This document shows positions 6,245 to 43,912 of a DNA stretch of 64,000 bases, piece by piece; the stretch's first letter is position 1; each line of letters begins with the position of its first letter. Origin of the DNA: an uncultured Clostridia bacterium (GTDB taxonomy: Bacteria; Bacillota; Clostridia; Oscillospirales; Ruminococcaceae). Where the stretch lies: NCBI GenBank assembly GCA_947627875.1, contig CANQXS010000005.1:62001-126000 (forward strand), given 5' to 3'. Made by a program: the position numbers and the translations under genes. Below the pieces are notes generated by a model, which made no database searches, was not told the DNA's origin, and saw nothing but the letters and a program-made list of their open reading frames with translations.

Positions 6245-7528
6245 TTATTTTACCGCGGCGAAGCCCTGTTCGAGGTCGGCGATTATGTCGTCGATGTGCT
6301 CCGTTCCGATAGAGAGGCGAATCGTGTTCTGCCTGATTCCCTGCTCTTCGAGCTCCTCGTCGGTGAGCTGAGCGTGGGTGGTGGTCGCGGGATGGATAAC
6401 GAGGCTCTTTACGTCGGCTACGTTCGCCAGAAGCGAGAATATCTTAAGGCTGTCGATGAATTTATGCGCCTCGGCTCTGCCGCCCTTTATCTCGAAGGTG
6501 AATATCGAAGCCCCGCCGTTCGGGAAGTATTTTTCGTAGAGCGCGTGGTCGGGGTGATCGGGGAGCGAGGGGTGGTTCACCTTTACCACCTGCGGGTGGT
6601 GAGCGAGGTATTCGACTACCTTCTTGGTGTTCTCGGCGTGGCGTTCGAGCCTGAGCGAGAGGGTCTCAACGCCCTGAAGAAGCAGGAAAGCGTTGAAGGG
6701 CGAGATGCAGGCGCCGGTGTCTCTTAAGAGTACCGCGCGTATGTAGGTCACGAACGCCGCAGGACCCGCAGCGTCGGCGAAGCAAACGCCGTGGTAGCTC
6801 GGATTGGGCTCGGCGAGCGCCGGGAACTTGCCCGAGGCTTTCCAGTCGAACTTTCCTGAGTCTACGATAATTCCGCCGAGCGTCGTTCCGTGACCGCCGA
6901 TAAACTTTGTTGCGGAGTGGATAACGATGTCGGCTCCGTGCTCTATCGGACGGATAAGGTAGGGCGTTCCGAAGGTGTTGTCTATAACGAGCGGGATATT
7001 GTGCCTGTGGGCTATTTCGGCGACGGCGTCGATGTCGGGAATGTCGCTGTTGGGGTTGCCGAGGGTCTCAAGGTAAACGGCACGGGTGTTCCAGCGGATA
7101 GCCTTCTCTACCTCTTCGAGATCGTGGGCGTTCACAAAGGTTGTCTGAATTCCGAAGTGCGCGAAGGTCTGACCGAGAAGGTTATAGCTCCCGCCGTAAA
7201 TGGTCTTCTGCGCGACGATATGCCCGCCGTCCTGTGCGAGAGCCGCCGCAGCGTAGGTTACCGCTGCCGCTCCCGAAGCGACCGCAAGAGCCGCCGAGCC
7301 GCCCTCGAGCGCGGCTATTCTTTTTTCTAAAATCTCCTGAGTAGGGTTGGTGAGTCTGCCGTATATGTTGCCCGATTTAGAGAGACCAAACCTCGCCGCG
7401 GCGTCCGCGGAACTGTCGAACACATAAGAAGTCGTCTGATAGATAGGGACCGCCCTCGAATCGGTAGCGGGATCGGGCTGCTCCTGCCCTACGTGAAGCT
7501 GAAGAGTCTCAAATTTGTAATTGCTCAT
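6245..7528 (-). CDS. metY: O-acetylhomoserine sulfhydrylase
   Basis: This 427-residue PLP enzyme of the Cys/Met metabolism family makes homocysteine from O-acetylhomoserine and sulfide; a role in cysteine-linked reactions is also possible. The PLP lysine is K208 in HSATKFIGGHGTT, and the long insert and overall length fit MetY rather than shorter cystathionine synthases. The start is the ATG at 7528, preceded by AGAGGAT; an in-frame ATG 18 bp upstream lies before that site. The gene stands alone behind a promoter, a short leader ORF and a terminator hairpin, which indicates attenuation control. Confidence 0.92.
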   Translation of the reverse strand: MSNYKFETLQLHVGQEQPDPATDSRAVPIYQTTSYVFDSSADAAARFGLSKSGNIYGRLTNPTQEILEKRIAALEGGSAALAVASGAAAVTYAAAALAQDGGHIVAQKTIYGGSYNLLGQTFAHFGIQTTFVNAHDLEEVEKAIRWNTRAVYLETLGNPNSDIPDIDAVAEIAHRHNIPLVIDNTFGTPYLIRPIEHGADIVIHSATKFIGGHGTTLGGIIVDSGKFDWKASGKFPALAEPNPSYHGVCFADAAGPAAFVTYIRAVLLRDTGACISPFNAFLLLQGVETLSLRLERHAENTKKVVEYLAHHPQVVKVNHPSLPDHPDHALYEKYFPNGGASIFTFEIKGGRAEAHKFIDSLKIFSLLANVADVKSLVIHPATTTHAQLTDEELEEQGIRQNTIRLSIGTEHIDDIIADLEQGFAAVK

Positions 7529-7580
7529 AAAATATCCTCTTTTCATTAAATTAAATTCAGATTGATGCCGAATTTGAGCG

Positions 7581-7757: not shown

Positions 7758-7798
7758 TTTCACTGCCTCCTGATTGCTTTCGCTCAAATTATGAGGCA

Positions 7799-11727: not shown

Positions 11728-12721
11728 TTTCATTTTCCTCCTTTACAAAAGCAGAACGCGTGTGGCATATGGCAACGGCCATTAGAATAAATGCCGCATA
11801 CATAATGCCGAAAATATCGTTTATTCGCGGATAGGTTATGTCCACCGCTGTATAATCAGCGGGCTGCACTCTCATTCTGTTGTACGAGCCGAGTATTTCC
11901 AAGGTAATAAGAAGCCCCGACAGAACTATCGCTGCCAAGAGGTTGAATTTGCTTTTAAACATCGATGGGCGGCCCAGCGCAAGTATCGCGTATATAATAA
12001 ACGTTTCGAGCGTCACCGAAACGGCTCCCAGTGCTGATGAGGAAGCCCACATCGTCCTGAAACCTGCCTGCCACAGCGCTATTTCGAGGACATTCGTCGC
12101 CGCCGGCATAACAAGGTATACCGCAAATGCCGCAGCGACCTTTTTTATTATGATCCTGCGCTTTTCGGGAGACTGCCTTGAATAAAGCTCTTTTGAAAAC
12201 ACCGTCATATTTTTATCTATCATCACCGCCGCCAGATAAAGGAACGGCAGGGCATAGAGCGACGAAATAACGTAATGTATGACCGACGCCGCAGGCATCG
12301 CACGATACATCGCCGCGTCCGTGGTTATGATCATATTCATGATCGTTGTTATCAGCACGGCAGTTACATATCTTAAAACAATTACCTCAATAAAACCCAG
12401 AGCGACAGCCGCCGCGTTTGCCACACGCTTGAGAAAAGGGTCTTTCTCGACGGGGCTTATGCGTTTATTCGGAGAGGCTTCGTTTTCTGCCTTGGAGGTC
12501 TGTGCGCTTTCGGGCGGGGCGGGCGAATCCTTCACAAGGCTGTCTATCGTAACGCCGAAGAAGTCGCTTATGGCTTTGAGGTTATCGAGCGACGGCACGC
12601 CCGTACCCATCTCCCATTTCGAGACCGCCTGCCGCGAGACTCCGAGAGCCTCGGCGAGCTCCTCCTGCTTCAAATTCCGTTGAGTGCGCAGCTCATAGAG
12701 CCGACGGGCGAGCAAATTCAT
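11699..12721 (-). CDS. XRE-type HTH protein with membrane domain (copy 2)
   Basis: This 340-residue paralogue of the next gene downstream begins MNLLARRLYELRTQ and has the same HTH (about 5-65), a charged linker, and roughly seven hydrophobic segments. The membrane part shows no close sequence similarity to that of copy 1. AAAGGAG and a TTTACA-17-TATAAT promoter lie upstream, so this is the first gene of the pair. The stop lies inside the start region of copy 1. Ligand and targets are unknown; possible autoregulation is inferred from the HTH. Confidence 0.85.
   Translation of the reverse strand: MNLLARRLYELRTQRNLKQEELAEALGVSRQAVSKWEMGTGVPSLDNLKAISDFFGVTIDSLVKDSPAPPESAQTSKAENEASPNKRISPVEKDPFLKRVANAAAVALGFIEVIVLRYVTAVLITTIMNMIITTDAAMYRAMPAASVIHYVISSLYALPFLYLAAVMIDKNMTVFSKELYSRQSPEKRRIIIKKVAAAFAVYLVMPAATNVLEIALWQAGFRTMWASSSALGAVSVTLETFIIYAILALGRPSMFKSKFNLLAAIVLSGLLITLEILGSYNRMRVQPADYTAVDITYPRINDIFGIMYAAFILMAVAICHTRSAFVKEENENEQSAEAAL
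12521..12703. repeat. Near-identical HTH-coding repeat, copy 2
   Basis: This is the partner of 11527-11709, in the same orientation. Confidence 0.85.
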
Positions 12722-12749
12722 ATATTAAAACACTCCTTTCAACGCGATC

Positions 12750-12778
12750 ATTATATCAGAATCGAGCCTTATTGTAAA
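12750..12778 (-). promoter_or_regulatory. Promoter of HTH-membrane pair
   Basis: On the minus strand TTTACA and TATAAT are separated by 17 bp. Confidence 0.7.
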
Positions 12779-12796
12779 GCGACAGAGGTTTACAAT

Positions 12797-12863
12797 TTGC
12801 GCAACGCGCCGTTGCGCGGCAAAAACGCTGCTGTTTATGAGGTTTTCGCAAAATGATAACCTC
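12797..12863. other. Inverted repeats upstream of glgP
   Basis: The 320-bp gap between the HTH gene and glgP holds two divergent promoters and two inverted repeats: GCGCAAC-gcgcc-GTTGCGC near 12797-12816 and GAGGTT/AACCTC near 12839-12863. Either could be an operator. Nothing else is seen in the gap. Confidence 0.4.
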
Positions 12864-12968
12864 TTTACCGCGCGTTTTTCGGGAAACATCGGCGATGCGC
12901 TTTTTATTTAAACGAGCGGCGCCGCATTCCGAAGCAACAAATAAACCCTTCCTTCCCCCTTTTCACAC

Positions 12969-12997
12969 TTGACATCTTCGGAATAATTGGTTATAAT
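12969..12997 (+). promoter_or_regulatory. Promoter of glgP
   Basis: TTGACA and TATAAT are separated by exactly 17 bp, a full consensus. Confidence 0.85.
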
Positions 12998-13041
12998 TGT
13001 AACATTGCACTACCGAAAATTCTTACAAAGGAGAGTTTACT

Positions 13042-15435
13042 TTGGCTAAGATTCATTATACCGAAAGGGAGCTCAAGGAAGAGCTCGCCAACGTTCTTAT
13101 GGACAAGTTCGGCGTTAAGCCCGATTCCGCCTCCGATTCTCAGTTTTACGAGGCTTTAGCCGCAATAGTCGTCCCTATCCTCGTTGAAAAGCGCCGCCAC
13201 TATACCAACCACGTTCACAGCGTAGGTCAGAAACAGGTCTATTACATCTCTATGGAGTTCCTTATGGGGCGCTCCTTAAAAACCAACCTCTTTAACCTCG
13301 GTCTGACCGATAAGGTCGAAAAAGTCCTCAAGGAATACGGCGTTTCGCTCAATGCCGTATACGAGCGCGAGCCCGACGCAGGTCTCGGAAACGGCGGTCT
13401 CGGAAGGCTTGCCGCCTGCTATCTCGACGGTCTCGCGACCGACGGCTACCCCGCAACAGGCTATTCCATTCTCTACGAATACGGCATCTTCCGCCAGAAG
13501 ATCGAAGACGGCTGGCAGGTCGAGCTGCCCGACAACTGGCTCCCCGGCGGTTCCTGCTGGCTGGTCCCGCGCCCCGAGCAGCAGATCGAGATCCATTTCG
13601 ACGGCAATCTCCACGAATACTGGGACCAGCAGTATCACCACATCACCCTCGATAACTACACCACCGTTCTCGCCGTTCCCTACGATATGTTCGTCTCGGG
13701 GTACGACAGCGACGCCGTCTCTAAGCTCAGGCTCTGGAAGGCGGTCAGCCCCGCGTTCGATATGAATATGTTCAATTCGGGCAACTACGAAAAGGCGCTC
13801 GGTCAGAATATCGTCGCTCAGGCTATTTCGAAGGTCCTTTACCCCAACGACAACCACCTCGAGGGTCAGTCCTTAAGGCTCAGGCAGCAATACTTTATGT
13901 GCGCCGCCTCGATAGGCGATATAGTCAACCACCATATGGCAACCTACGGAACTCTCGACAACCTCGCCGATAAAGTCGCTATACAGATCAACGACACCCA
14001 CCCGACCCTCGCCATTCCCGAGCTTATGCGCGTTCTGCTCGACGACTGCGGCTACAGCTGGGACCGCGCCTGGGATATAGTTTCAAAGTGCTTCTCTTAT
14101 ACCAACCACACCGTTATGGCTGAGGCGCTCGAAAAGTGGAGCGTAAATCTCCTCGAGAGCATCGTCCCGAGAATTTACTCCATCATCGTCGAGATAAACA
14201 ACCGCTACTGCGCAGGGCTTTGGGATAAATACCGCGACCACGACAGGGTATCCCGCATGTCCATAATCCGCAACGGTCAGGTCCATATGGCGAAGCTCTG
14301 CGTCGCCGCCTCTCACCACGTCAACGGCGTATCGGTCATTCATTCCGACATCATCAAGGATTCCGTCTTTAAATACGAATACGAGAACACCCCCGAGAAA
14401 TTCACCAACGTCACCAACGGCATCGCCTACCGCCGCTGGCTCTGCCAGTCGAACAAGCCGCTCTGCAAGCTTTTGGACAGCACCATCGGCAGCGGCTACC
14501 GCAAAGACGCCCGCGAGCTCAAGAAATTCGAGGCTTATAAAGACGACGCCGACGTTCTCGAATCCCTGAGAAAGATAAAGCTTACCAACAAGACCACGTT
14601 CGCGAAGTTCGTAAAGTCTCAGTGGGGGACCGTCATCGACCCCGATACTCTCTTCGACGTTCAGGTCAAGCGCCTCCACGAATACAAGCGCCAGCATCTC
14701 AACGTTCTGAACATAGTTTCGGAATATAACTACCTTCTCGAGAATCCCGACGCCGATTTCCAGCCCAAGACCTATATCTTCGCGGCTAAGGCAGCCCCGG
14801 GCTATTACCTCGCGAAGCAGATAATCAAGCTTATCTGCGCCCTCAGCGACGAAATTAAGAAGAACCCCGCTATCCGCAGCAAGCTCAACGTGGTCTTCCT
14901 CGAAAACTACAACGTTTCGCTCTCCGAGCTCCTTATGCCGGCGTCCGAAATTTCCGAGCAGATTTCCCTCGCCGGAACCGAGGCTTCGGGTACGGGCAAT
15001 ATGAAGCTTATGCTCAACGGCGCCGTTACCCTCGGCACCCGCGACGGTGCCAACATCGAGATAGGCAACGTTGTCGGCAGCGAGAACATCATCAACTTCG
15101 GTATGACCGCCGACGAGGTCGAGCAGAAAAAGCACGGCTACAATCCCGCTCATATCTACGGAGCCGACCCGATCATCAAGGCGGCTATCGACATGATAGG
15201 CTCGGGAATAAACGGCAGCAGCTTCGACGACGTAGTGAATTCCCTGAAGTTCAGCGACCCTTATATGGTCCTTGCCGACTTCGAGTCATATAGGCAGGCT
15301 CAGGCTTATGCCTCCGAGATATACCGCGACGTTAATAAGTGGCAGTCGATGTCGCTTATGAACATCGCCAACGCCGGAGTCTTCTCGGCAGACAGAGCGG
15401 TCAGGGAATACGCCAAGAATATCTGGAAGCTCTGA
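13042..15435 (+). CDS. glgP: Glycogen/maltodextrin phosphorylase (GT35)
   Basis: This 797-residue PLP enzyme cleaves alpha-1,4-glucans with phosphate to release glucose-1-phosphate in the cytoplasm. The PLP lysine is K655 in SGTGNMKLMLNGAVTLGTRD, the family signature, and the N-terminal part has the usual LGNGGLGRLAACYLDGLATD loop. Length is normal for bacterial phosphorylases. The start is a TTG 9-10 bp after AAAGGAGAG; no nearby ATG fits. It is monocistronic, with no glycogen synthesis genes nearby, so use of stored glycogen or imported maltodextrin cannot be distinguished. Confidence 0.96.
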   Translation: MAKIHYTERELKEELANVLMDKFGVKPDSASDSQFYEALAAIVVPILVEKRRHYTNHVHSVGQKQVYYISMEFLMGRSLKTNLFNLGLTDKVEKVLKEYGVSLNAVYEREPDAGLGNGGLGRLAACYLDGLATDGYPATGYSILYEYGIFRQKIEDGWQVELPDNWLPGGSCWLVPRPEQQIEIHFDGNLHEYWDQQYHHITLDNYTTVLAVPYDMFVSGYDSDAVSKLRLWKAVSPAFDMNMFNSGNYEKALGQNIVAQAISKVLYPNDNHLEGQSLRLRQQYFMCAASIGDIVNHHMATYGTLDNLADKVAIQINDTHPTLAIPELMRVLLDDCGYSWDRAWDIVSKCFSYTNHTVMAEALEKWSVNLLESIVPRIYSIIVEINNRYCAGLWDKYRDHDRVSRMSIIRNGQVHMAKLCVAASHHVNGVSVIHSDIIKDSVFKYEYENTPEKFTNVTNGIAYRRWLCQSNKPLCKLLDSTIGSGYRKDARELKKFEAYKDDADVLESLRKIKLTNKTTFAKFVKSQWGTVIDPDTLFDVQVKRLHEYKRQHLNVLNIVSEYNYLLENPDADFQPKTYIFAAKAAPGYYLAKQIIKLICALSDEIKKNPAIRSKLNVVFLENYNVSLSELLMPASEISEQISLAGTEASGTGNMKLMLNGAVTLGTRDGANIEIGNVVGSENIINFGMTADEVEQKKHGYNPAHIYGADPIIKAAIDMIGSGINGSSFDDVVNSLKFSDPYMVLADFESYRQAQAYASEIYRDVNKWQSMSLMNIANAGVFSADRAVREYAKNIWKL

Positions 15436-29084: not shown

Positions 29085-29115
29085 AAATTTACCTCCGATA
29101 CAGCTTGTTGCATTT

Positions 29116-29144
29116 ATTTTACAAGGTTTGCGTCTCTGTGTCAA
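29116..29144 (-). promoter_or_regulatory. Promoter of GH51 gene
   Basis: On the minus strand TTGACA and TAAAAT are separated by 17 bp. The divergent gap to the T-box promoter (about 29150-29365) is A/T-rich and shows nothing else firm. Confidence 0.75.
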
Positions 29145-29365
29145 CACCTTTTTGATAAGAAATTATTGATTTTTTATGCCTTGAATGATTTGAATTTTTC
29201 TATTGCGTTTACGCATATGTTTCGGTATGATACGTCAGCAAAATCTACGAAAACGCAAGCCGCTGTTTTTCCCGAAAATTCCGGCAATATCTATCTTCGG
29301 GGATTTCTATAAAATGCGCCGCATAAAACGGCGGCTCCGACTAAAAAATTTATTAAAATCGCCGA

Positions 29366-29394
29366 TTGACATAGTTTTAAAGCGGTGATATAAT
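29366..29394 (+). promoter_or_regulatory. Promoter of T-box operon
   Basis: TTGACA and TATAAT are separated by exactly 17 bp just before the T-box leader. Confidence 0.88.
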
Positions 29395-29400
29395 ATCGGA

Positions 29401-29684
29401 AAATAAAAGCTGTGACGGAGACGGAAGGCTTTGAAAGCGCCTTACAGAGAGCCGGGCAAGGTGGAAGCCGGCGGGCGGAAGGTCCTTCATATCACTCCCG
29501 AGCCGGATACCCCGAGTCTTAGCGAGGTAGGGGCGTCCCGCGGCTGCGCGTTATAGCAGAGGGCTTGTCTGAGCCTCGGAGCGGCGCGGTTTTTCGCGCA
29601 ATTTGAGTGGTACCGCGGGTACATATATTAACTACTGTTAATTATGGCTCGTCTCAAAGAAATTTGAGACGGGTCATTTTGCTC
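29401..29684 (+). ncRNA. T-box riboswitch, isoleucine specifier AUC
   Basis: All parts of a T-box leader are visible. Stem I has the AGAGAGCC and GGTGGAAGCC elements. The specifier loop lies between GGAG/CTCC and GAAGG/CCTTC helices, and its 3' side reads ATATCA. By position (codon, then a purine, then the lower helix, then GAGC) the specifier is ATC, isoleucine. The T-box TGGTACCGCGG is at 29609-29619; its bulge TGGT fits an acceptor end ACCA. A terminator GTCTCAAA-gaaa-TTTGAGAC (extended stem 29646-29675) with a T-rich tail follows. Uncharged tRNA-Ile would permit readthrough into the downstream operon. Confidence 0.9.
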
Positions 29685-29720
29685 TTTAAAATGCACATAT
29701 TAAGAAAGGAATGATTATCA

Positions 29721-31997
29721 GTGAGCACAAACACGGCTTCAACACAGCTTTTGGAGGTGGCGGCGCGAATCCGTGAAATGCGCGAAATTATGGGCTGGAC
29801 TCCGGCGGAAATGGCGGAAAAGCTCAACATCGGCGAGCAGGAATACCTCGTTTACGAAAACGCCGAGGCAGACCTTCCGTTTACGTTCATCCACAACTGC
29901 GCTATGGCGTTCGACATCGACCTCACCGACCTTTTGGAGGGGCGCAGCGCGGCGCGTCTTTCGAGCTACACTCTGACCCGCAAGGGACAGGGTCAGGTAA
30001 CGGCAAGGGAGCAGGGGATAGATATAGCAAACCTCGCCCCGAAGTTCCGCGATAAAATTGCCGAGCCCTACTGGGTAAAATACGAATACAGCGAGGCTCA
30101 GCAGAACGTGCCTATCCACCTTACCCAGCACAGCGGTCAGGAATTCGACGTTATCATCTCGGGCAGCTTGAAGGTCCAGGTCGGAAACCACGTCGAGGTC
30201 CTCCACGAGGGCGACAGCATCTACTACAACTCTTCCACCCCTCACGGAATGATAGCCGTAGAGGGCGGCGACTGCGTTTTCGTAGCGGTCGTTCTTCCGG
30301 GCGAGGATACCGCCGAGGAGACCGTCCGCACCAGCCTCATTCAGGCCAACCGCCCCGAAAAGCACACTCTTCTCTGCGAGAAGTTCGTCGACACCGTTGA
30401 GGACGAGAGCGGCAAGCTCAAGAGTCTCAAGTTCAAGAACACCGAGAGCTTCAACTTCGGCTTCGACTGCGTCGACGCCATAGCCGACAAATATCCCGAA
30501 AAGCTCGCGATGCTTCATCTCGACAAGCACAAGGTCGAGCGCAGGTTCACCTTTAAAGACATCAAGCGCGCCTCGAATCAGACCGCGAATTACTTCCGCT
30601 CCCTCGGTATCAAGCGCGGCGACAAGGTAATGCTCGTTTTAAAGAGGCATTATCAGTTCTGGTTCGCGATGGTAGCCCTCCATAAGCTCGGAGCGGTAGC
30701 TATCCCCGCGACCAACCAGCTCAAGGAGCACGACTTTGAATACCGCTTCAACAGCGCGAGCGTTACGGCTATTCTCTGCACCGCCGACGGCGACGTAGCC
30801 GAGATAGCCGAGCGCGCAGCCGAAAAATGCCCGACCGTAAAGACAAAGATACTCGTTGGCGGCGCAAGAGAGGGCTGGCACGACTTCGACAACGAATACC
30901 CGCTCTTTACCGGAAAGTTCGAGCGCCCCGAGGACTGCTCTGCGGGCAGCGAAATGGCGCTTATGTTCTTCACCTCCGGCACTACCGGCAACCCGAAGAT
31001 GGCAGCCCACGCACATACCTACGCCCTCGGTCACTTCGTCACCGCTAAATACTGGCACTGCTGCGAGCGCGACGGTCTCCATCTCACCATCTCCGACACC
31101 GGCTGGGGCAAGTCGCTCTGGGGCAAGCTCTACGGTCAGTGGCTCTGCGAAGGCGCAGTGTTCGTCTACGACTTCGATAAGTTCGACGCCGCCGACATCC
31201 TGCCGCTCTTCGCAAAATACAACATCACCACCTTCTGCGCGCCTCCGACTATGCTCAGAATGATGATAAAAGAGGACCTCTCGGTTTATGACCTTTCCTC
31301 CATTCACCATATGACCACCGCGGGCGAGGCGCTCAACCCCGAAGTCGCGAAGCAGTTCAAGCAGGCTACCGGTCTCGAGATAATGGAGGGCTTCGGTCAG
31401 ACCGAGACCACCCTCGTTATCGGCAATCTCTTCGGCGACGTCCCGAAATACGGCTCTATGGGCAAGGCTTCGCCTCAGTACGACATCGATATCCTCGACC
31501 CCGACGGCAAGCCCTGCGCCAACGGCGAGGTCGGCGAGATAGTTATAAAAACCTCCGACGAAGTCCCCGTAGGTCTCTATAAGGAGTATTACCTCAACGA
31601 GCAGCTAACCCTCGAGGCCTGGCACGACGGCTACTACCACACCGGCGACACCGCCTGGCGCGATGAAGACGGCTACTTCTGGTATGTCTCCCGCGTCGAC
31701 GACGTTATCAAGTCCTCGGGCTACCGCATCGGTCCCTTCGAGATCGAGAGCGTTATCATGGAGCTTCCCTACGTTTTGGAGTGCGGCGTTTCCGCCGTTC
31801 CCGACGAGGTAAGAGGTCAGATAGTAAAGGCGAGCATCGTCTTAACTAAAGGCACCGTCGGCACCGACGAGCTCAAGAAGGAGATTCAGAACTACGTCAA
31901 GAGCCACACCGCGCCCTATAAATATCCGAGAGTTATCGCTTTCCGCGACGAGCTCCCGAAGACTATAAGCGGAAAGATCCAGAGAAACAAGCTCTGA
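29721..31997 (+). CDS. XRE-cupin-acyl-CoA synthetase fusion
   Basis: This 758-residue protein joins three parts: a cro/CI-type HTH (about 10-75), a cupin (about 130-195, with PHGM and GDSIYY), and an AMP-forming acyl-CoA synthetase (about 240-758). The ATP-binding loop FFTSGTTGNPK lies near 415-425. GDTAWRDEDGYFWYVSRVDD and the C-terminal catalytic Lys in TISGKIQR are intact. It should make an acyl-CoA from a carboxylic acid, ATP and CoA. The T-box and downstream genes suggest a branched short-chain acid such as 2-methylbutyrate. The start is GTG with AAAGGA upstream; a nearby ATG is out of frame. Whether the HTH still binds DNA is unknown. Confidence 0.9.
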   Translation: MSTNTASTQLLEVAARIREMREIMGWTPAEMAEKLNIGEQEYLVYENAEADLPFTFIHNCAMAFDIDLTDLLEGRSAARLSSYTLTRKGQGQVTAREQGIDIANLAPKFRDKIAEPYWVKYEYSEAQQNVPIHLTQHSGQEFDVIISGSLKVQVGNHVEVLHEGDSIYYNSSTPHGMIAVEGGDCVFVAVVLPGEDTAEETVRTSLIQANRPEKHTLLCEKFVDTVEDESGKLKSLKFKNTESFNFGFDCVDAIADKYPEKLAMLHLDKHKVERRFTFKDIKRASNQTANYFRSLGIKRGDKVMLVLKRHYQFWFAMVALHKLGAVAIPATNQLKEHDFEYRFNSASVTAILCTADGDVAEIAERAAEKCPTVKTKILVGGAREGWHDFDNEYPLFTGKFERPEDCSAGSEMALMFFTSGTTGNPKMAAHAHTYALGHFVTAKYWHCCERDGLHLTISDTGWGKSLWGKLYGQWLCEGAVFVYDFDKFDAADILPLFAKYNITTFCAPPTMLRMMIKEDLSVYDLSSIHHMTTAGEALNPEVAKQFKQATGLEIMEGFGQTETTLVIGNLFGDVPKYGSMGKASPQYDIDILDPDGKPCANGEVGEIVIKTSDEVPVGLYKEYYLNEQLTLEAWHDGYYHTGDTAWRDEDGYFWYVSRVDDVIKSSGYRIGPFEIESVIMELPYVLECGVSAVPDEVRGQIVKASIVLTKGTVGTDELKKEIQNYVKSHTAPYKYPRVIAFRDELPKTISGKIQRNKL

Positions 31998-32027
31998 TGA
32001 GCTCAAAAAGGAAAAGGAGGAACGGCT

Positions 32028-32696
32028 GTGTCAATGCATAAGCGAGTAACGCTTTTCGCCGGTCATTACGGCAGCGGAAAGACCAATCTTGCGGTAAACT
32101 GGGCTCTCGGGCTCAAAAAGCAGGGCGGGCGCGTGGTTATCGCCGACCTCGACATAGTCAACCCCTATTTCCGAACGAAGGATTCCGCCGCGCTCCTCGA
32201 AGAAAACGGAATAGAGGTCGTTTCGCCCGAGTTCGCCAACTCAAACGTCGACCTTCCCGCGCTTCCCGCCGAGCTCTACGGCGTGGTCCAGAACAGACAG
32301 CGCTATGCGGTTATGGACATCGGCGGCGACGACAGGGGAGCAGTGGCTCTCGGGCGGTATGCGCCCTATATCTTGGAGGAAAACGACTTCGAGATGATTT
32401 TCGTCGCAAACTTTATGCGCCCGCTCACTCTTACCCCCGCCGACGCGCTCGAAGTCATGCGCGAGATAGAGCAGGCGGGGGGCATCCCGTTTACCTCGAT
32501 AGTAAACAACACCAACCTCGGTCCGCTCACCGAGCCCGAAACGGTGCTTTCGGGGCTCGAAAAATGCCGCGAGCTTTCAGCGCTCTGCGGTCTGCCGATA
32601 CTGTTCACCTCGGCAAGAAGGGATATAGCTTCAAAGCTGAATATATCGCCACTCCTGCCGATAGACATACAGCGAAAGTATTACGAGATTTTATAA
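32028..32696 (+). CDS. MinD/ParA-like P-loop ATPase
   Basis: This 222-residue protein has the deviant Walker A GHYGSGKTN (about 11-19), then DLDIVNPYFRTKD, and MDIGGDDRGA as Walker B region, like the MinD/CobB-type SIMIBI class. It lies between the acyl-CoA synthetase and the ferredoxin subunit in the T-box operon. A role in cofactor or Fe-S delivery to the oxidoreductase is possible but only inferred from position. The start is GTG 7 bp after GGAGG; an ATG six bases later is an alternative. Confidence 0.82.
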   Translation: MSMHKRVTLFAGHYGSGKTNLAVNWALGLKKQGGRVVIADLDIVNPYFRTKDSAALLEENGIEVVSPEFANSNVDLPALPAELYGVVQNRQRYAVMDIGGDDRGAVALGRYAPYILEENDFEMIFVANFMRPLTLTPADALEVMREIEQAGGIPFTSIVNNTNLGPLTEPETVLSGLEKCRELSALCGLPILFTSARRDIASKLNISPLLPIDIQRKYYEIL

Positions 32697-32712
32697 CGAT
32701 TGGAGAAGGATT

Positions 32713-32922
32713 ATGGCAAAGCTGACTTTTGCAACTGATATCTGCAAGGGCTGCGGGCTGTGCGTAAACGCCTGTCCGCGAAAGCTCATAGTGATCGCCA
32801 AGGATAAGATCAACAAAAAAGGTCATTCTCCCGCGGAGATCACCGACATTTCAAAGTGCATCGGGTGCGCCTGCTGTGCGGTCATGTGTCCCGACTGCGT
32901 TATCACGGTTGAAAAGGAGTGA
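32713..32922 (+). CDS. 2 x [4Fe-4S] ferredoxin subunit
   Basis: This 69-residue protein has two clusters: CKGCGLCVNACP (about 12-23) and CIGCACCAVMCP. It is the small electron-transfer (delta) subunit of 2-oxoacid:ferredoxin oxidoreductases and passes electrons between the TPP site and external ferredoxin. It immediately precedes the alpha subunit. GGAG lies before the ATG. Confidence 0.93.
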   Translation: MAKLTFATDICKGCGLCVNACPRKLIVIAKDKINKKGHSPAEITDISKCIGCACCAVMCPDCVITVEKE

Positions 32923-32926
32923 GAAT

Positions 32927-33987
32927 ATGTCAAAGGTATTGATGAAAGGCAACGAAGCTATCGCCGAGGCAGCGATAAGGGCGGGCTGCCGGCATTATTT
33001 CGGCTACCCGATAACCCCTCAGACCGAGATAGCGGCTTATATGGCAAAGAGAATGCCCAAGATAGGCGGAACGTTCCTTCAGGCCGAGAGCGAAATTTCC
33101 GCGATAAATATGGTCTACGGCGTGTCGTCGGCGGGCTACCGCGTTATGACCTCTTCTTCGAGCCCCGGAGTTTCGCTCAAGCAGGAGGGGATATCATACC
33201 TCGCGGGCTCCGATCTTCCCGCGCTCGTAGTAAACGTTCAGCGCGGCGGTCCCGGTCTCGGAGGAATACAGCCCTCTCAGTCCGACTATTTTCAGGCTAC
33301 CAAGGGCGGCGGACACGGCGACTACCACCTCATCGTCCTCGCTCCCGCCTCGGTCCAGGAGATGGCGGACCTCACCGTAAAGGCTTTCGAGCTTTCCGAT
33401 AAATACCGTATGCCCGCTATGCTCCTTGCCGACGGAACTATGGGTCAGATGATGGAGCCGGTAGAGCTCCCCGCCGAGAATTCCGGCAAGACCTACGAAA
33501 AGCCCTGGGCAGTAAGAGGCACCGAAAACAAGCGCGAGCATAATATCATAAATTCGCTGTATCTCGTCCCCGAGCAGCTCGAGGTCAAGAACCTCGAAAG
33601 ATACGAGCGCTATAAAGAGGTCGAGAAAAACGAGACCCTCGTTGAGGAATACCTGACCGACGACGCCGATATCTGCGTGGTTGCGTTCGGAATAGCGGCA
33701 AGAGTCTCGAAAAACGCGATAAACGCCGCCCGTGAAAAGGGGATAAAGGTCGGCTTGATAAGACCTATAACCCTCTGGCCCTTCCCGTCCGAGGCTATTG
33801 CGAAGGCAGCCGAGAAGGTAAAGGGCTTTATCTCCGTCGAGCTTTCTATGGGTCAGATGATAGACGACATAAGGCTCGCCGAAAGCTGCAAAAAGCCGGT
33901 CGTGCTTTGCAGCAGGGTGGGCGGAATGATCCCCTCGCCCGAACAGGTACTTAAAGCTATTGAAGATATGGAAGGAGGAGAGCGCTG

Positions 33988-33988
<1 letters not shown>
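32927..33988 (+). CDS. vorB: 2-oxoacid:ferredoxin oxidoreductase alpha subunit (VorB type)
   Basis: This 353-residue subunit starts [20 protein letters not shown] and contains the pyrimidine-binding domain [10 protein letters not shown], typical of VOR/KOR-type enzymes. The set of four separate subunits and the ilvE and acyl-CoA synthetase neighbours favour branched-chain 2-oxo acids, though 2-oxoglutarate or pyruvate cannot be excluded by sequence alone. The ATG at 32927 has AAGGAG upstream. The stop overlaps the beta start (TGATG). Reaction: 2-oxo acid + CoA + oxidised ferredoxin to acyl-CoA + CO2, reversible with low-potential ferredoxin. Confidence 0.9.
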
Positions 33989-34740
<752 letters not shown>

Positions 34741-34742
34741 AC

Positions 34743-35279
34743 ATGGCTTACACTCAGATACTCATAGCGGGCTTCGGAGGTCAGGGCGTTCTCTTCGCCG
34801 GAAAGGTCCTCGCCTATAAAGGGCTCGAGGAGGAGAAGCAGATAAGCTGGCTGCCCTCCTACGGTCCCGAGATGCGCGGCGGCACCGCCAACTGCTCGGT
34901 AATAATCAGCGACACCCCCGTAGGCTCGCCGATAGTCTCGGAGCCCGACATTCTCGTAGTTATGAATCTTCCCTCGCTCGATAAATACGAAAACGCCGTA
35001 AAAGCGGGCGGCAGCGCCTTTATCGATTCAACGCTCATCGAGCGCAGGGTCGAAAGGACCGACATAAGCGCCTATTACATCCCCGCGACGAAGATGGCGC
35101 GCGACCTCGGTCTCCCCACTCTTGCGAATATGATAATCGTCGGAAAGGTCATACGCGAGACCGGCGTGATAGATATGGACGGCCTGCGCGACGCCCTCGC
35201 AAAAACGGTCTCGGCAAAGCATCAGGATCTTATTGAAGCTAACCTCAAGGCTATTGAGGCAGGATATAACTATATTTAA
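34743..35279 (+). CDS. 2-oxoacid:ferredoxin oxidoreductase gamma subunit
   Basis: This 178-residue subunit begins MAYTQILIAGFGGQGVLFAGKVLA, the standard gamma-domain start, and has SYGPEMRGGTANCSV next. It completes the four-subunit enzyme. The ATG at 34743 is 10 bp after GGAGG; a GTG at 34737 overlapping the beta stop is also possible. Confidence 0.92.
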   Translation: MAYTQILIAGFGGQGVLFAGKVLAYKGLEEEKQISWLPSYGPEMRGGTANCSVIISDTPVGSPIVSEPDILVVMNLPSLDKYENAVKAGGSAFIDSTLIERRVERTDISAYYIPATKMARDLGLPTLANMIIVGKVIRETGVIDMDGLRDALAKTVSAKHQDLIEANLKAIEAGYNYI

Positions 35280-35293
35280 AGGAGAGATATTCA

Positions 35294-36361
35294 ATGCTTG
35301 ACATCAAAATAACAAAAACGGCTTCGCCGAAGAAAAAGCCCGCCAAGGGCGAGCCTCTCGGCTTCGGTCACATCTTTACCGACCACATGTTCGTTATGAA
35401 TTACACCGAGGGCAAGGGCTGGCACGGCCCGAGGATAGTCCCATTCGGCGATATTTCGCTCAGCCCCGCGGCTATGGTCTTCCATTACGGTCAGACTATG
35501 TTCGAGGGCTTAAAGGCCTATAGGGGAGACAGCGGCGATATCTATCTCTTCCGCCCCGATATGAACGCCAAGCGCGCCAACACCTCGAACGACAGGCTCT
35601 GCATACCCCATATTCCCGAGGAGGATTTCGTTCAGGCGGTAAAAGCCGTTGTAGATGTCGACCGCGACTGGGTACCCTCCGAGGAAGGCACCTCGCTCTA
35701 TATCCGCCCGTTCATCATCTCTACCGACGCTCATCTCGGCGTCGCCCCTTCTAAAACCTATCTCTTTATGGTCATTCTCTCTCCTTCGGGAGCATATTAC
35801 GAGAGCGGTCTCGAGCCCGTAGGAATATGGATCGAGGACGAATATGTAAGAGCGGTCCGCGGCGGTATGGGCTTTGCCAAGACCGGCGGCAACTACGCCG
35901 CTTCGCTCGCGGCACAGGTAAAGGCACACGACGGCGGCTATTCCCAGGCTCTCTGGCTCGACGGCGTAGAGCGCAAATATATCGAAGAAGTCGGCTCGAT
36001 GAACATCGCCTTCAAGATAAGCGGCAAGGTCGTTACCCCGATGCTCAACGGCTCTATCCTCCCCGGAATCACCCGCAATTCTATACTTCATCTCTGCCGC
36101 GAGTGGGGATATGAGGTCGAGGAGCGCAGGATTTCCGTCGACGAGCTCATCGAGGCTGCGCATTCCGGCGCTCTCGAAGAGGTATTCGGAACCGGCACCG
36201 CGGCTGTAGTTTCTCCCGTCGGAAAGCTCAGATATAAAGACGAAGTTATAGATATCGGCGGCGGAAAAATAGGCGAGCTTACCCAGCGCCTCTACGACGA
36301 ACTCACGGGTATTCAGTGGGGCAAGAAGCCCGATCCCTACGGCTGGAGGGTCACCGTTTGA
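35294..36361 (+). CDS. ilvE: Branched-chain amino acid aminotransferase
   Basis: This 355-residue fold-type IV PLP enzyme interconverts branched-chain 2-oxo acids and Leu, Ile or Val. The family segments FEGLKAYR, LYIRPFI and YIEEVGSMNIAF are present, with the PLP lysine expected in the segment RKYIEEVGS. AAAGGAG precedes the ATG. It ends the T-box operon, directly after the oxidoreductase, so it would aminate or deaminate that enzyme's substrate. Confidence 0.95.
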   Translation: MLDIKITKTASPKKKPAKGEPLGFGHIFTDHMFVMNYTEGKGWHGPRIVPFGDISLSPAAMVFHYGQTMFEGLKAYRGDSGDIYLFRPDMNAKRANTSNDRLCIPHIPEEDFVQAVKAVVDVDRDWVPSEEGTSLYIRPFIISTDAHLGVAPSKTYLFMVILSPSGAYYESGLEPVGIWIEDEYVRAVRGGMGFAKTGGNYAASLAAQVKAHDGGYSQALWLDGVERKYIEEVGSMNIAFKISGKVVTPMLNGSILPGITRNSILHLCREWGYEVEERRISVDELIEAAHSGALEEVFGTGTAAVVSPVGKLRYKDEVIDIGGGKIGELTQRLYDELTGIQWGKKPDPYGWRVTV

Positions 36362-36422
36362 GCTTGCGCGAAGTCCGAAAAACTCGCTCGAAAGAAATTT
36401 GATTAAAATTTACAAAAATTAC

Positions 36423-36454
36423 TTGACATTTGCCGCGAAATATGGCACTATAAT
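36423..36454 (+). promoter_or_regulatory. Promoter of secreted repeat protein
   Basis: TTGACA and TATAAT are separated by 20 bp, longer than usual; a CTCAA/TTGAG hairpin lies in the leader. Confidence 0.5.
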
Positions 36455-36509
36455 AGATGTAGATTCTCAAAATCTTGAGGTCTTAAATGAAAATAGGAGG
36501 TCATTTACA

Positions 36510-37106
36510 ATGACAAAGAAGATTCTTGCAATCGCCTTAGCCGCTGTTATGGTTATGGCTCTTAGCGTAGCTGCTTTTGCAGATTACGAAGCTGTTGACG
36601 AGCTCGGCGGTCCTCTCACCGGTAACAAGACCATTCCGCTCCCCTCTACTCTCGATATTTCCAACGGTGCGACTGTTACTCTTAAGGTAAAGGGAACCTC
36701 TGCCGATTCCGCCATCAGATTCTACCTCACCGGTCCCACCGATAACGAGCGCGTTACCGATGCTATCTCCGTCCCTGTTGTTGACGGCGCTTTCGAAGCC
36801 GAAGTCGTTATGACTATCGACTCCACCGGTGCTATCCAGGGCAGTGCCGATCCTACCGTTCTTATGATCAAGGGTCCTCAGGCCGGCGTTGACATCACCG
36901 ACACCACCTTCGAGTCCCTCGTTTTCGTAGGAATCGATGCTCCCGCTGCTGAGCCCGCTGCCGAGGAAACTCCCGCCGCTGACGAAGCTCCCGCTGCCGA
37001 TGCTGCTCCTGCCGACACCACTCCCGCTCCCGACACCGGTCTTGCCCTCGCGGTTATCCCCGCTGTTATGGCTCTTGCGGCTGTCGCTGTCTCCAAGAAG
37101 CACTGA
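36510..37106 (+). CDS. Secreted protein with PAADE repeats and TG-type C-terminal anchor
   Basis: This 198-residue protein has a signal peptide (MTKKILAIALAAVMVMALS, cleavage after about AFA at 23), a folded part of unknown family (about 25-145), an Ala/Pro/Glu repeat (PAADE units), and the C-terminal sequence PDTGLALAVIPAVMALAAVAV followed by SKKH. This tail resembles a sortase signal (a TG motif, hydrophobic helix, basic end) but is not LPXTG. A paralogue with the same ends and a different middle lies at 52793-53500. It is likely a surface protein. A GGAGG site precedes the ATG. Confidence 0.85.
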   Translation: MTKKILAIALAAVMVMALSVAAFADYEAVDELGGPLTGNKTIPLPSTLDISNGATVTLKVKGTSADSAIRFYLTGPTDNERVTDAISVPVVDGAFEAEVVMTIDSTGAIQGSADPTVLMIKGPQAGVDITDTTFESLVFVGIDAPAAEPAAEETPAADEAPAADAAPADTTPAPDTGLALAVIPAVMALAAVAVSKKH

Positions 37107-37145
37107 TTTGAGCTTATTCCCGATACCGGAAATATAACATGCTCC

Positions 37146-37178
37146 AAAACCGTATCCGCTTTGCGGGTGCGGTTTTTG
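37146..37178 (+). terminator. Intrinsic terminator
   Basis: The 13-bp stem AAACCGTATCCGC / GCGGGTGCGGTTT (two G-U type pairs) is followed by T. Confidence 0.8.
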
Positions 37179-37179
37179 C

Positions 37180-37208
37180 TTGACAGCCCTTTGCGTTTAT
37201 GTTAAACT
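37180..37208 (+). promoter_or_regulatory. Promoter of prmA
   Basis: TTGACA and TAAACT are separated by 17 bp. Confidence 0.75.
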
Positions 37209-37234
37209 AATCAAAAAACGACGGGAGACAGATT

Positions 37235-38191
37235 ATGGACTGGCTTGAACTCAGGATACACACGGAGCATAAATTTATGGACGACCTCGCTGCGGCGCTG
37301 ATTTCTGCGGGGATAACGGGGCTCGTTATCAACGACCCCGAGGACGTGAGGGAGTTTGCCGCCGAAAAGAATTCGAGCTGGGATTATATCGACGACGAGC
37401 TTCTTAAGTCGGCGACCTCGGGCGACGCCTACGTTACCGTCTATCTTTCGGGCGACGCCGAGGGGGCTGCTATGGCGGAATCGGTCCGCTGCGCGCTTGA
37501 CAGGCTCACCTCGCTCGGAATCTCCTACCGGACCGAGAGCGGGAATATCCGCGAAGAGGACTGGGCTAACGAATGGAAGAAATTCTTCAAGCCCCAGCCG
37601 ATAGGCGAGAGGCTAATAATAAAGCCCTCCTGGGAGGAGGTCCCCGACCCGAAAGGGCGGGCGATAGTCGAGCTCGACCCCGAAAACAGCTTCGGAACGG
37701 GCCGCCACCACACCACTCAGCTCTGCCTCGAGCTCCTCGAAAAATATGTCCGCGAAGGGGACAGCGTCATCGACCTCGGCTGCGGCAGCGGTATAATCTT
37801 CATCTCGGCGCTGCTCCTCGGCGCGAAGAACGCCGTCGGAGTTGATATTTCCCCCGACGCTGCGAAAATCTCCCGCCGCAACGCCCGCAAGAACGGCATA
37901 GCCGACGAAAGAGCCGAGATCTACTGCGGCGACGCAGTCGCAGACCCCGAGCTCCGCGCAAAGGTCAGCCGAAAATACGACATAGTCGCGGCGAATATCG
38001 TCGCCGACGTGCTCCTCAATATGAAAGAGCTCTTTGCCGAGACCGCAAGGCAGGGCGGAACGCTTATCCTCTCGGGCATAATCGACGGCAGGACCGACGA
38101 AGTGTTTTCCGCGATGGAAAGCCTCGGATTTGAACTTACCGAGCAGCACCACCGCGACATCTGGAACGCCGCGGCATTCAAAAAGATATAA
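37235..38191 (+). CDS. prmA: Ribosomal protein L11 methyltransferase
   Basis: This 318-residue SAM-dependent enzyme methylates ribosomal protein L11. The SAM motif I is VIDLGCGSGIIFISALLLGA (about residue 170), preceded by FGTGRHHTTQLCLELLE, a PrmA hallmark, and followed by AANIVADVLL. It has the N-terminal L11-binding domain. It is monocistronic, with promoter and terminator in place. Confidence 0.95.
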   Translation: MDWLELRIHTEHKFMDDLAAALISAGITGLVINDPEDVREFAAEKNSSWDYIDDELLKSATSGDAYVTVYLSGDAEGAAMAESVRCALDRLTSLGISYRTESGNIREEDWANEWKKFFKPQPIGERLIIKPSWEEVPDPKGRAIVELDPENSFGTGRHHTTQLCLELLEKYVREGDSVIDLGCGSGIIFISALLLGAKNAVGVDISPDAAKISRRNARKNGIADERAEIYCGDAVADPELRAKVSRKYDIVAANIVADVLLNMKELFAETARQGGTLILSGIIDGRTDEVFSAMESLGFELTEQHHRDIWNAAAFKKI

Positions 38192-41909: not shown

Positions 41910-42884
41910 ATGGCAATGACAATAGGTATTCTTACCAGCGGCGGCGATGCTCCGGGTATGAACGCGGCGATACGCGCGGCTACCAGAGCGGCAATAGCAA
42001 AGGGTCATAAAGTGATCGGTATACGCAGAGGATATCAGGGGCTTATCGAGGGCGATATGTATGAGCTCACCGCCCGCGACGTTTCGGATATTCTTCACCG
42101 CGGCGGAACGATGCTCTGCACCGCCCGCAGCAAGGATTTCACCACTCAGGCAGGGCTTGACAAAGCCATGCAGAACTGTAAAAACGCCGGCATCGAGGCT
42201 CTTATAGTCATCGGAGGCGACGGAACATACCGCGGTGCGCTCGATTTCTCGCGCCTCGGAATGCCCTGCGTCGGTATCCCCGGGACTATCGACAACGATA
42301 TCGTCTGCACCGAATACACCATCGGCTTCGATACCGCTCAGAACACCGCTCTCGAGATGCTCGACAAGCTCAAAGACACCGAAATGTCTCATCACCGCTG
42401 CTCGGTCGTTGAGGTAATGGGCAGAAACGCAGGTCATATCGGCGTAAACGTCGCAGCGGCGACGGGCGCTATCGACTGCCTTACGGTAGAAATTCCCTAC
42501 GATTTAGACGATATCTGCCGCAAGATAATCGAGCAGAAGAACGCCGGAAAGACTCACTTCGAGCTTATAGTCTGCGAAGGCGTCGTCCACGGCGATTTTA
42601 CCTCAGACCATATCGCCAAGTATATCGAGCAAAAAACCGGAGTTACCTCCCGCGCGACCGTTTTGGGTCACGTTCAGCGCGGCGGCGCGCCCACCTGCTT
42701 CGACCGCGTTATGGCGCTCAAAATGGGCTACTACGCCGTTGAGCTCCTTGCAAACGGTCAGCATAACAGGATCGTCGCGGTAAAGAACAACAAGATCGTA
42801 GACTACGATATCGAAGAAGCCCTCAGAATGCAGAAGGGCTACGACGAAAAGCTCCATTCGGTCCTGCGCGTGCTTTCCATCTAA
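41910..42884 (+). CDS. pfkA: 6-phosphofructokinase
   Basis: This 324-residue ATP-type enzyme phosphorylates fructose-6-phosphate in glycolysis. ILTSGGDAPGMNAAIRA and VIGGDGTYRGA (ATP site) and the catalytic PGTIDNDI are intact. The Gly in GGDGT favours ATP over pyrophosphate as donor. TTGGAGG precedes the ATG. It is monocistronic, followed by a THF riboswitch. Confidence 0.96.
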   Translation: MAMTIGILTSGGDAPGMNAAIRAATRAAIAKGHKVIGIRRGYQGLIEGDMYELTARDVSDILHRGGTMLCTARSKDFTTQAGLDKAMQNCKNAGIEALIVIGGDGTYRGALDFSRLGMPCVGIPGTIDNDIVCTEYTIGFDTAQNTALEMLDKLKDTEMSHHRCSVVEVMGRNAGHIGVNVAAATGAIDCLTVEIPYDLDDICRKIIEQKNAGKTHFELIVCEGVVHGDFTSDHIAKYIEQKTGVTSRATVLGHVQRGGAPTCFDRVMALKMGYYAVELLANGQHNRIVAVKNNKIVDYDIEEALRMQKGYDEKLHSVLRVLSI

Positions 42885-42908
42885 GCCGCAAAATATATAA
42901 AAATCATT

Positions 42909-43013
42909 TAAGAGTAGAGATACGAGCGTGAAATAGTGTCGGGCAGACGGGGAGTTGCTGCCCGAACAAAACGCCGCAAAAGCGGCTGCGGTTCGTATTT
43001 CGCATCCCGCTTA
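42909..43013 (+). ncRNA. Tetrahydrofolate (THF) riboswitch
   Basis: The 5' AAGAGTAGAGATACGAGCG and 3' TTCGTATTTCGCATCCCGC strands match the conserved arms of the THF riboswitch. Between them are hairpins CGGGCAG/CTGCCCG and CCGC-aaaa-GCGG. It lies directly before the folate transporter gene folT, its known target class. Repression by THF is expected. Confidence 0.85.
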
Positions 43014-43093
43014 ACGTGCCAATAACAAGCCTTTTTTCGGCGTCCGCATATTAAGCAGGTCAAGCCATGTTTAATTTTAAGGAGGAATTGCCG

Positions 43094-43912
43094 ATGAAAG
43101 GCTTTTTCAATCTGTTCAAGCGCTCGGCTCTCGAGCTCAAAAGCATTCGCTGCCTGACGTTTACCGCTATGCTTATAGCATTAGACCTCGCCATCAAGCT
43201 CACGACGACTGTCACCACGAGCGACACGCTTCATATTTCCTTCGCGTTTGTTGCGCTCGCGTCGGTCTCAATGCTCTACGGACCTACGGTAGGCTTCGCC
43301 GCCGGCGTAATAACCGACCTTCTGGGCTTTCTGATAAAGCCCTCCGGCGCGTTCGATATCCGCTTCACTCTTATCGAGGGTCTCGGGGCGCTGATTTACG
43401 GAATATTCCTCTATAACGCCCAGAACGACCGCTGGCTGATTCCCCGCGTAATTGCCGCAAAAACGACGGTAGTAATCGTCTGCAACCTCTGGCTCACGAC
43501 CTGGGCTGTGGCGTCGCTTGCGGGCAAGGGCTTTTTGGCGATGTTCCCCGCAAGGGCGATAAAAAACATAGTCCAGCTCCCGATCGATATAATACTCCTT
43601 GCGCTTATTCTGCCGCTTGTTCTCAAGGCGTGGCAGATGATCCCGGGCAACAAGCGGGTAATAGACGAAAAGCTCCTATTCTGCGACCAGAGCGTCGGTA
43701 AGGCGATGATAGCGCTCACCGTACTGATAATGATAATCGTATTCAGCCTCGGTTACGGCGCGCAGAACCTCAGCGACAAGCTTTCAGAGCTCAAGAGCAC
43801 CGTCAAATCTCAGGGCGAGCAGATAGAGAAGATGGACGGCGAAATATCCGAGCTTTATTCGCGCCTCGGCATAGAGCGCCCCGCGCCGGAAGAGAAGCAG
43901 ACCGCCGAATAA
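43094..43912 (+). CDS. folT: Folate ECF transporter S component
   Basis: This 272-residue membrane protein matches FolT, the folate-binding subunit of energy-coupling-factor transporters. It has about six helices, and GPTVGFAAGVITDLLGFLI and the following GAFDIRFTLIEGLGALIYG are typical of the family. Unlike usual FolT (about 180 residues) it has a long C-terminal extension ending in a predicted coiled coil (about 220-265). AAGGAGG precedes the ATG at 43094. The shared ECF module is not in this window. The THF riboswitch upstream supports the substrate. Confidence 0.9.
   Translation: MKGFFNLFKRSALELKSIRCLTFTAMLIALDLAIKLTTTVTTSDTLHISFAFVALASVSMLYGPTVGFAAGVITDLLGFLIKPSGAFDIRFTLIEGLGALIYGIFLYNAQNDRWLIPRVIAAKTTVVIVCNLWLTTWAVASLAGKGFLAMFPARAIKNIVQLPIDIILLALILPLVLKAWQMIPGNKRVIDEKLLFCDQSVGKAMIALTVLIMIIVFSLGYGAQNLSDKLSELKSTVKSQGEQIEKMDGEISELYSRLGIERPAPEEKQTAE

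Follow-up and report, generated by a model that had tools for sequence, protein, structure and literature searches.

An isoleucine T-box operon proposed to make isoleucine from 2-methylbutyrate in an uncultured Clostridia bacterium

The window analyzed here is a stretch of 64,000 nucleotides from contig CANQXS010000005.1 of an uncultured Clostridia bacterium of the family Ruminococcaceae (assembly GCA_947627875.1). At positions 29366 to 36361 it carries a candidate isoleucine biosynthesis operon: a promoter and a T-box leader RNA, followed on the same strand by seven genes with short gaps between them. These encode an acyl-coenzyme A (CoA) ligase, a P-loop NTPase, a ferredoxin, the alpha, beta, and gamma subunits of a 2-oxoacid:ferredoxin oxidoreductase (OFOR), and the transaminase IlvE.

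Results

A T-box leader with an isoleucine specifier

The region upstream of the first gene holds the following features.

29366..29394, + strand: sigma-70 promoter, TTGACA-17-TATAAT with an extended -10 element (TG), 12/12 consensus matches
29403..29659, + strand: RF00230 T-box leader (74.9 bits against the covariance model; E 1.4e-16 when 401 bases were scanned locally)
29491..29493, + strand: specifier codon ATC (AUC, Ile), from the T-box covariance alignment
29607..29617, + strand: antiterminator motif GTGGTACCGCG, from the sequence and the T-box alignment
29644..29677, + strand: intrinsic terminator stem-loop of 15 pairs, alternative to the antiterminator

A preliminary description, made from the letters alone, had claimed a consensus promoter and a T-box with specifier ATC. 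Both were borne out. The promoter ranks at the top of 8 promoter-like sites in 29100-37300, where shuffled regions average 4.8 such sites. Both members of the antiterminator/terminator pair are present in the leader, as is UGGU, a candidate partner of the acceptor end of tRNA-Ile.

Is the specifier assigned correctly? The genome of the host (2.57 Mb in 50 contigs, estimated 100% complete) contains 10 T-boxes at E values up to 1, and only the operon's leader has an Ile specifier. Specifier and downstream gene are consistent for all of the other nine. Six specifiers could be read directly off the Rfam alignment: Tyr (tyrS), Asp (hisS), Val (valS), Cys (cysE-cysS), Trp (trpE), and Phe (pheS). The gene seen behind the Asp T-box is hisS; aspS, expected next, falls outside the locus. 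Those of alaS (Ala), leuA (Leu), and thrS (Thr) were read by eye at a fixed distance to the pyrimidine-GAG motif, because of gaps or inserts in the alignment. We also aligned 39 of the 105 available Ile T-boxes from relatives and observed double-sided changes in 29 of 51 consensus pairs. These 39 were picked for ATC, so their specifier column adds no independent support.

A ligase, a complete oxidoreductase, and a transaminase

Seven genes follow the leader.

29721..31997, + strand: fusion of an XRE-type helix-turn-helix (HTH), a cupin, and an AMP-forming acyl-CoA synthetase, 758 residues (profile matches); proposed 2-methylbutyrate--CoA ligase
32028..32696, + strand: SIMIBI-class P-loop NTPase (profile and fold search)
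32713..32922, + strand: ferredoxin-type delta subunit, two [4Fe-4S] (profile matches)
32927..33988, + strand: OFOR alpha subunit, 2-oxoisovalerate type, VorB family (PRK07119, 559.9 bits, cut-off 399)
33988..34740, + strand: OFOR beta (TPP) subunit (Pfam cut-off reached, no NCBIfam cut-off reached)
34743..35279, + strand: OFOR gamma subunit (TIGR02175, 83.0 bits, cut-off 81.1)
35294..36361, + strand: IlvE, branched-chain amino acid transaminase type II (PRK13357, 494.3 bits, cut-off 307; TIGR01123, 408.4 bits, cut-off 250.05)

The oxidoreductase gene set is complete, with alpha, beta, gamma, and the ferredoxin-like delta together. From its sequence we propose that the OFOR is of the 2-oxoisovalerate type (VOR/KOR), with a predicted role in branched 2-oxoacid carboxylation. 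Profile matches upheld the gene families listed in the preliminary description with two amendments: its acyl-CoA synthetase is the XRE-cupin-ligase fusion, and its "MinD-like" ATPase is a SIMIBI P-loop NTPase only. The upstream neighbor of the operon, an arabinofuranosidase gene, is divergent.

The host genome has no recognizable entry to isoleucine

Elsewhere in the host genome, an operon under a Leu T-box encodes leuA, leuC, leuD, leuB, ilvB, ilvN, ilvC, and ilvD. As judged from these genes, valine and leucine can be made via ilvBNCD/leuACDB. Threonine deaminase was not found in this genome (no TIGR01127 match at E 1e-40), and its four PALP proteins are two cysteine synthases, TrpB, and threonine synthase. 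Nor did any of its proteins score above the cut-off for citramalate synthase; the sole match, at 80.2 bits, was the leuA product. The leuACDB-ilvBNCD operon thus stands without the usual entry to isoleucine, a gap that the T-box ligase operon would fill. The preliminary description had allowed that a full ilv operon could make the proposed route unnecessary. An ilv operon is present, yet no isoleucine entry was found. Two genus mates in our sample share this ilv pattern, and each has a ligase with an Ile T-box.

The host also encodes two O-acetylhomoserine sulfhydrylase-like proteins, and a minor source of 2-oxobutyrate is possible. The window holds one of the two genes.

6245..7546, - strand: O-acetylhomoserine/O-acetylserine sulfhydrylase family gene (TIGR01326, 638 bits, cut-off 495.1)

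Relatives carry paired ligases with Ile and Val T-boxes

A survey of specifier types ahead of the same gene set in related genomes, proposed in the preliminary description as a check, found Ile on the first ligase and Val on an adjacent paralogue. The fused ligase is often doubled in relatives, with a separate T-box for each copy: Ile (AUC) for the first and Val (GUA or GUC) for the second. After the pair mostly come the P-loop NTPase, ferredoxin, VorABC, and ilvE genes, with ilvE sometimes right behind the ligase. Among 100 loci (L041-L140), many of which end at contig edges that limit the VorABC count, the order was Ile then Val in 39 and Val then Ile in none; 41 had Ile alone, and in 20 no T-box could be read for one or more of the ligases. 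The specifiers kept for ligases were Ile or Val and none other.

Our first T-box pattern, in which GGTGG was obligatory, passed over almost all of these leaders, and a relaxed pattern was used afterwards. The first pass over 180 open reading frames (ORFs) of loci L011-L140, in which overlapping loci of one genome were counted twice, gave ATC 104, GTA 31, GTC 3, ambiguous 4, unread 9, and none 29. The second gave ATC 114, GTA 35, GTC 7, none 23, and GCC 1. Two labels were corrected by hand: L055 became ATC (degenerate antiterminator), and L058 was changed from GCC to none.

Do the ligases themselves follow the specifiers? We kept rows of at least 700 residues and dropped exact repeats, leaving 172 ligases (108 Ile, 42 Val, 19 none, and 3 cut). 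In the FastTree phylogeny, all 42 Val copies fall on one side of a single branch (support 99) and all 108 Ile copies on the other, a single change. Of the 22 unlabelled ligases, 7 group with the Val copies and 15 with the Ile copies. The split recurs with one change when the HTH-cupin part is used alone. The catalytic part alone gives a near-split of two changes, with 40 Val and no Ile copies on one side. The window ligase falls among the Ile-type ligases of genomes that carry the pair, has the same pocket residues, and is 70-78% identical to them (20 genomes with both T-boxes read).

These samples carry a bias. Ranked by similarity to an Ile-type query, the 80 named loci are the top 80 of at least 591; nearly all are labelled as metagenome-assembled genomes or uncultured, and many come from rumen or herbivore gut. 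Another 30 loci were likewise taken as best matches, and 20 further regions were hand-picked. Val copies were sampled mostly as neighbors, and a lone Val ligase could be missed.

In two loci, L125 (Erysipelotrichaceae bacterium NK3D112, 11496-13886) and L132 (a Solobacterium sp. metagenome assembly, 6517-8820), the T-box of the second ligase is differently built (GGTGGTACCACG), and its specifier is Val GUC. Here a switch specific for valine was apparently recruited a second time. Beyond the host's order, ligases with Ile and Val T-boxes lie next to VOR genes in G433 as well, and G347 and G607 carry a ligase under an Ile T-box.

Separately, Leu T-boxes with CTC or CTG specifiers occur close to the ligase operon in 11 loci. 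The ORFs behind them (459-490 residues) look like LeuA (2-isopropylmalate synthase), and one 87-residue piece that was classified gave TIGR00973 as its best match, at 29.2 bits. If they are LeuA, they would draw leucine from isobutyrate-derived 2-oxoisovalerate.

Genomes with the ligase pair mostly lack ilvC and ilvD

Among 295 genomes of the order, ilvC was found in 3 of 34 pair genomes, the 34 being those among the matches listed, versus 140 of 261 others (Fisher tests, kinship not corrected). It was thus absent from 31 of the 34; for 20 of them both T-boxes could be read, and 18 of these 20 had no ilvC. We also surveyed ilv genes and cimA, for citramalate synthase, in 58 hand-picked genomes. 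Of the 21 pair genomes among them, 19 had neither ilvC nor ilvD, 19 had no ilvA, and none had cimA over the cut-off. Ten of the 21 are at least 90% complete, and ilvC and ilvD were absent from nine of these. T-boxes were looked for in all of these 21 but G257; 19 gave both, and G278 gave the Ile one only. In G071, which has the Ile operon with one ligase, ilvC, ilvD, and ilvA are all missing.

The ilvC gap in pair genomes fits the synthetic direction, which the preliminary description had proposed and which this comparison and the missing isoleucine entry of the host support. OFOR/ligase pairs are often assigned to oxidation in fermenters. A catabolic operon would convert isoleucine to 2-methylbutyryl-CoA and reduced ferredoxin, then to the acid with gain of ATP. 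Induction by lack of isoleucine would be senseless for isoleucine breakdown, however, and the ilv gaps match the specifiers. We consider such an operon highly improbable.

Might the ligase instead activate propionate? VOR would then form 2-oxobutyrate from propionyl-CoA, and ilvBNCD and IlvE would finish isoleucine. Since the host keeps ilvBNCD, 2-oxobutyrate would suffice there. In the pair genomes, mostly without ilvC (and ilvD where tested), 2-oxobutyrate would be a dead end, and the window ligase groups with their Ile-type ligases and shares their pocket residues. Moreover, according to the relevant passage of PMC10455477, the nearest characterized enzyme adenylates propionate but prefers 2-methylbutyrate, with which it completes the CoA ester. 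Hence the propionate route appears improbable.

In seven genomes (G148, G031, G003, G034, G041, G061, and G188), citramalate synthase scored above the cut-off and ilvC and ilvD were not found. The G003 gene has one internal stop. The six loci examined, one from each of these genomes but G031, show a ligase without adjacent VOR, and the stretch carrying the G148 citramalate synthase gene contained no gene of the operon.

A proposed route from 2-methylbutyrate to isoleucine

Taken as a whole, the data make it very probable that the operon makes isoleucine from 2-methylbutyrate, with substrate and flux inferred from sequence comparison. Uncharged tRNA-Ile, on accumulating, would pair with the AUC specifier and stabilize the antiterminator, permitting read-through into the operon. 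The ligase would convert 2-methylbutyrate to 2-methylbutyryl-CoA, the ferredoxin-dependent VOR would carboxylate this reductively to 3-methyl-2-oxopentanoate, and IlvE would yield isoleucine by transamination. In the host, the route would replace the missing isoleucine entry, with valine and leucine coming from ilvBNCD/leuACDB. In relatives without ilvC and ilvD, the Val T-box paralogue would produce isobutyryl-CoA for use by the same VOR and IlvE.

Several observations weigh against this proposal. The leader scores below the Rfam gathering score of 93; for this reason a whole-window scan at the gathering score missed it, and the local E-value scan recovered it. Eight of the 10 T-boxes in the genome, this leader among them, fall under the gathering score, and the genes that follow fit nonetheless. 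No tRNA-Ile(GAU) was found in the host assembly by two patterns; the gene was perhaps lost together with an rRNA operon during assembly. Among relatives, VorABC is incomplete or missing within the stretch at 26 of the 41 Ile-only loci, in part because contigs end, and no T-box could be read for 23 of the 180 ligases once one label had been corrected by hand in each direction. Three pair genomes have ilvC (G089, G192, and G254), with ilvD and ilvA also in G089, and the pair genome G163 has ilvA. The full set of ilvC, ilvD, and ilvA accompanies an Ile T-box ligase beside VOR genes in G178 and G098 and one without adjacent VOR in G189, G227, and G117. Hence the route can be redundant. Finally, gene absences rest on draft assemblies, some less than 90% complete, and the ligase scores low against its best family model, as described below.

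The ligase: acyl pocket and fused HTH-cupin part

Three parts of the ligase gene can be placed as follows.

29730..29939, + strand: HTH part, model residues 4-73 (Pfam HTH_19 and HTH_3, scores below cut-off)
29970..30296, + strand: cupin part, residues about 84-192 (Pfam)
31104..31121, + strand: acyl-pocket motif W462-G463-K464-S465-L466-W467, with the Ile-type residues G463 and L466

The closest solved structure is 3ETC; the catalytic part is about 49% identical, and fold and pocket residues matched. The structural alignment covers ligase model residues 230-758, and the HTH-cupin part rests on Pfam and secondary structure. We mapped pocket positions by counting on the alignment to 3etc, using six positions reportedly listed in a 2010 paper. 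Their equivalents, W445, W462, K464, W467, C506, and G559, are invariant in 150 of 150 labelled ligases. The title of the 3etc entry names Lys256 and Cys298, and a passage of PMC10455477 names Trp259 and a pocket Gly for the pocket of this enzyme, Macs.

Which residues tell the two branches apart? The best clade-separating sites of the catalytic domain are 463 and 466, both within W462-x-K464-x-x-W467. Site 463 is Gly in 107 of 108 Ile-labelled ligases and Ala in all 42 Val-labelled ones; site 466 is Leu in 105 of 108 Ile-labelled ligases, and Met (30), Ala (10), or Thr (2) in the Val-labelled ones. The window ligase carries Gly463 and Leu466, the Ile type. A larger residue at 463 would suit a smaller acid, isobutyrate.

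The best NCBIfam model for the ligase is NF047394 (MbcS), and assignment to that family was rejected: the score is 438.7 bits versus an equivalog cut-off of 850. As a passage of PMC10026030 has it, MbcS of Staphylococcus aureus feeds branched fatty acid synthesis. By analogy, ligase and VOR could supply the membrane with branched acyl-CoA primers for anteiso/iso fatty acids. Against such a role stand the Ile T-box control, the co-transcribed VOR and ilvE genes, the Val T-box twin, and the absence of ilvC and ilvD from most twin genomes, and we give it very little credence.

Of the top 45 discriminating sites over the whole ligase, 35 lie in residues 1-215, a hint that the HTH-cupin part recognizes something branch-specific. 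Unfused HTH-cupin (or cupin) genes lie directly beside a ligase gene in other classes, at L167 (3599-5842) and L168-L170, and in Parabacteroides distasonis, at L173 (7992-10214). In L167 the two genes come after those for the P-loop NTPase, ferredoxin, and VorABC; in L173 they precede proline genes. No T-box was seen by regular expression in L167-L170. These separate genes suggest that the HTH-cupin part was originally a regulator belonging to the ligase. Tentatively, and with somewhat less than even confidence, we propose that the ligase is a regulator-enzyme: the cupin would detect an acid, acyl-CoA, or amino acid belonging to its branch, and the HTH would bind operon DNA, a second layer of control in addition to the T-box, while specifier and residues 463 and 466 would form a code naming the acid for each ligase in anaerobe genomes.

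The P-loop NTPase

MinD proteins bear a deviant Walker A motif, KGGxGKT, with a signature lysine. The window protein reads GHYGSGKT, without the signature lysine of the KGG motif, and its fold points elsewhere; we therefore rejected a MinD identity. A 222-residue model (pLDDT 90.4) led in fold searches to SRP/FtsY and HypB-type P-loop proteins. The conserved motifs are GHYGSGKT and DLDIVNPYFRT, and G-H-x-G-S-G-K occurs in all 34 aligned homologues (34 of 65 found). VorABC is present in 60 of the loci L041-L140, accompanied by ferredoxin in 60 of 60 and by the P-loop gene in 59 of 60; in L051 the P-loop gene is distant and on the other strand. Our guess is that the protein may help VOR assembly or activation.

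Elsewhere in the window

A tetrahydrofolate riboswitch (RF01831, 73.8 bits) lies at 42908-43014 on the + strand, between a phosphofructokinase gene (41910-42884) and a 281-residue ORF (43067-43912) that had no Pfam match at 1e-8.

Discussion

The chemistry proposed here is old. That gut and rumen anaerobes use branched short-chain acids has been known since the 1960s, according to passages in PMC2812497 and PMC7356843, which cite Robinson and Allison (1969) and Allison and Peel (1971) for the carboxylation routes that lead from 2-methylbutyrate to isoleucine and from isobutyrate to valine. The operon shares with that work the proposed reactions, the precursor acids, and the rumen or gut setting. 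As cited there, the earlier work is physiological, whereas ours assigns genes, RNA switches, and an enzyme pair. In the open-licence PMC literature we found no T-box control of the route, no specifier/ligase code, no regulator-ligase fusion, and no gene-level handle on branched-acid use; an earlier mention is possible.

Among characterized enzymes, the medium-chain acyl-CoA synthetase Macs (PDB 3ETC) of Methanosarcina acetivorans resembles the window ligase in its catalytic part, with the six pocket residues conserved. It differs in being archaeal and in having no HTH-cupin part in the matched chain, and it is not known to have a T-box. Its preferred acid is 2-methylbutyrate, according to a passage of PMC10455477. 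MbcS, besides being the best family model, uses the same two acids as the proposed ligase pair, 2-methylbutyrate and isobutyrate (a passage of PMC10026030). Unlike the window ligase, which falls short of its cut-off, it serves fatty acid synthesis. For Methanobrevibacter ruminantium, the genome paper proposes that isoleucine is made from required 2-methylbutyrate by reductive carboxylation; this organism is an archaeon, and the passage in question assigns no ligase and no RNA switch (PMC2812497).

The closest regulatory parallels are the T-boxes of amino acid biosynthesis, such as the host's own Leu T-box on leuACDB-ilvBNCD, which have the same leader architecture and logic. What differs here is that a route of acid salvage and reductive carboxylation is controlled and that paired ligases carry different specifiers. 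Because the RNA switch names the amino acid, it allows both direction and substrate to be predicted. For isolates of Ruminococcus albus and R. flavefaciens, which reportedly require branched acids, one would expect Ile and Val T-box ligases and no ilvC or ilvD. Operons now labelled as 2-oxoacid oxidation or "AMP-binding protein" can be reannotated as pathways to isoleucine or valine. Genomes can likewise be used to predict which acids are cross-fed, and to correct auxotrophies wrongly supposed for branched-chain amino acids.

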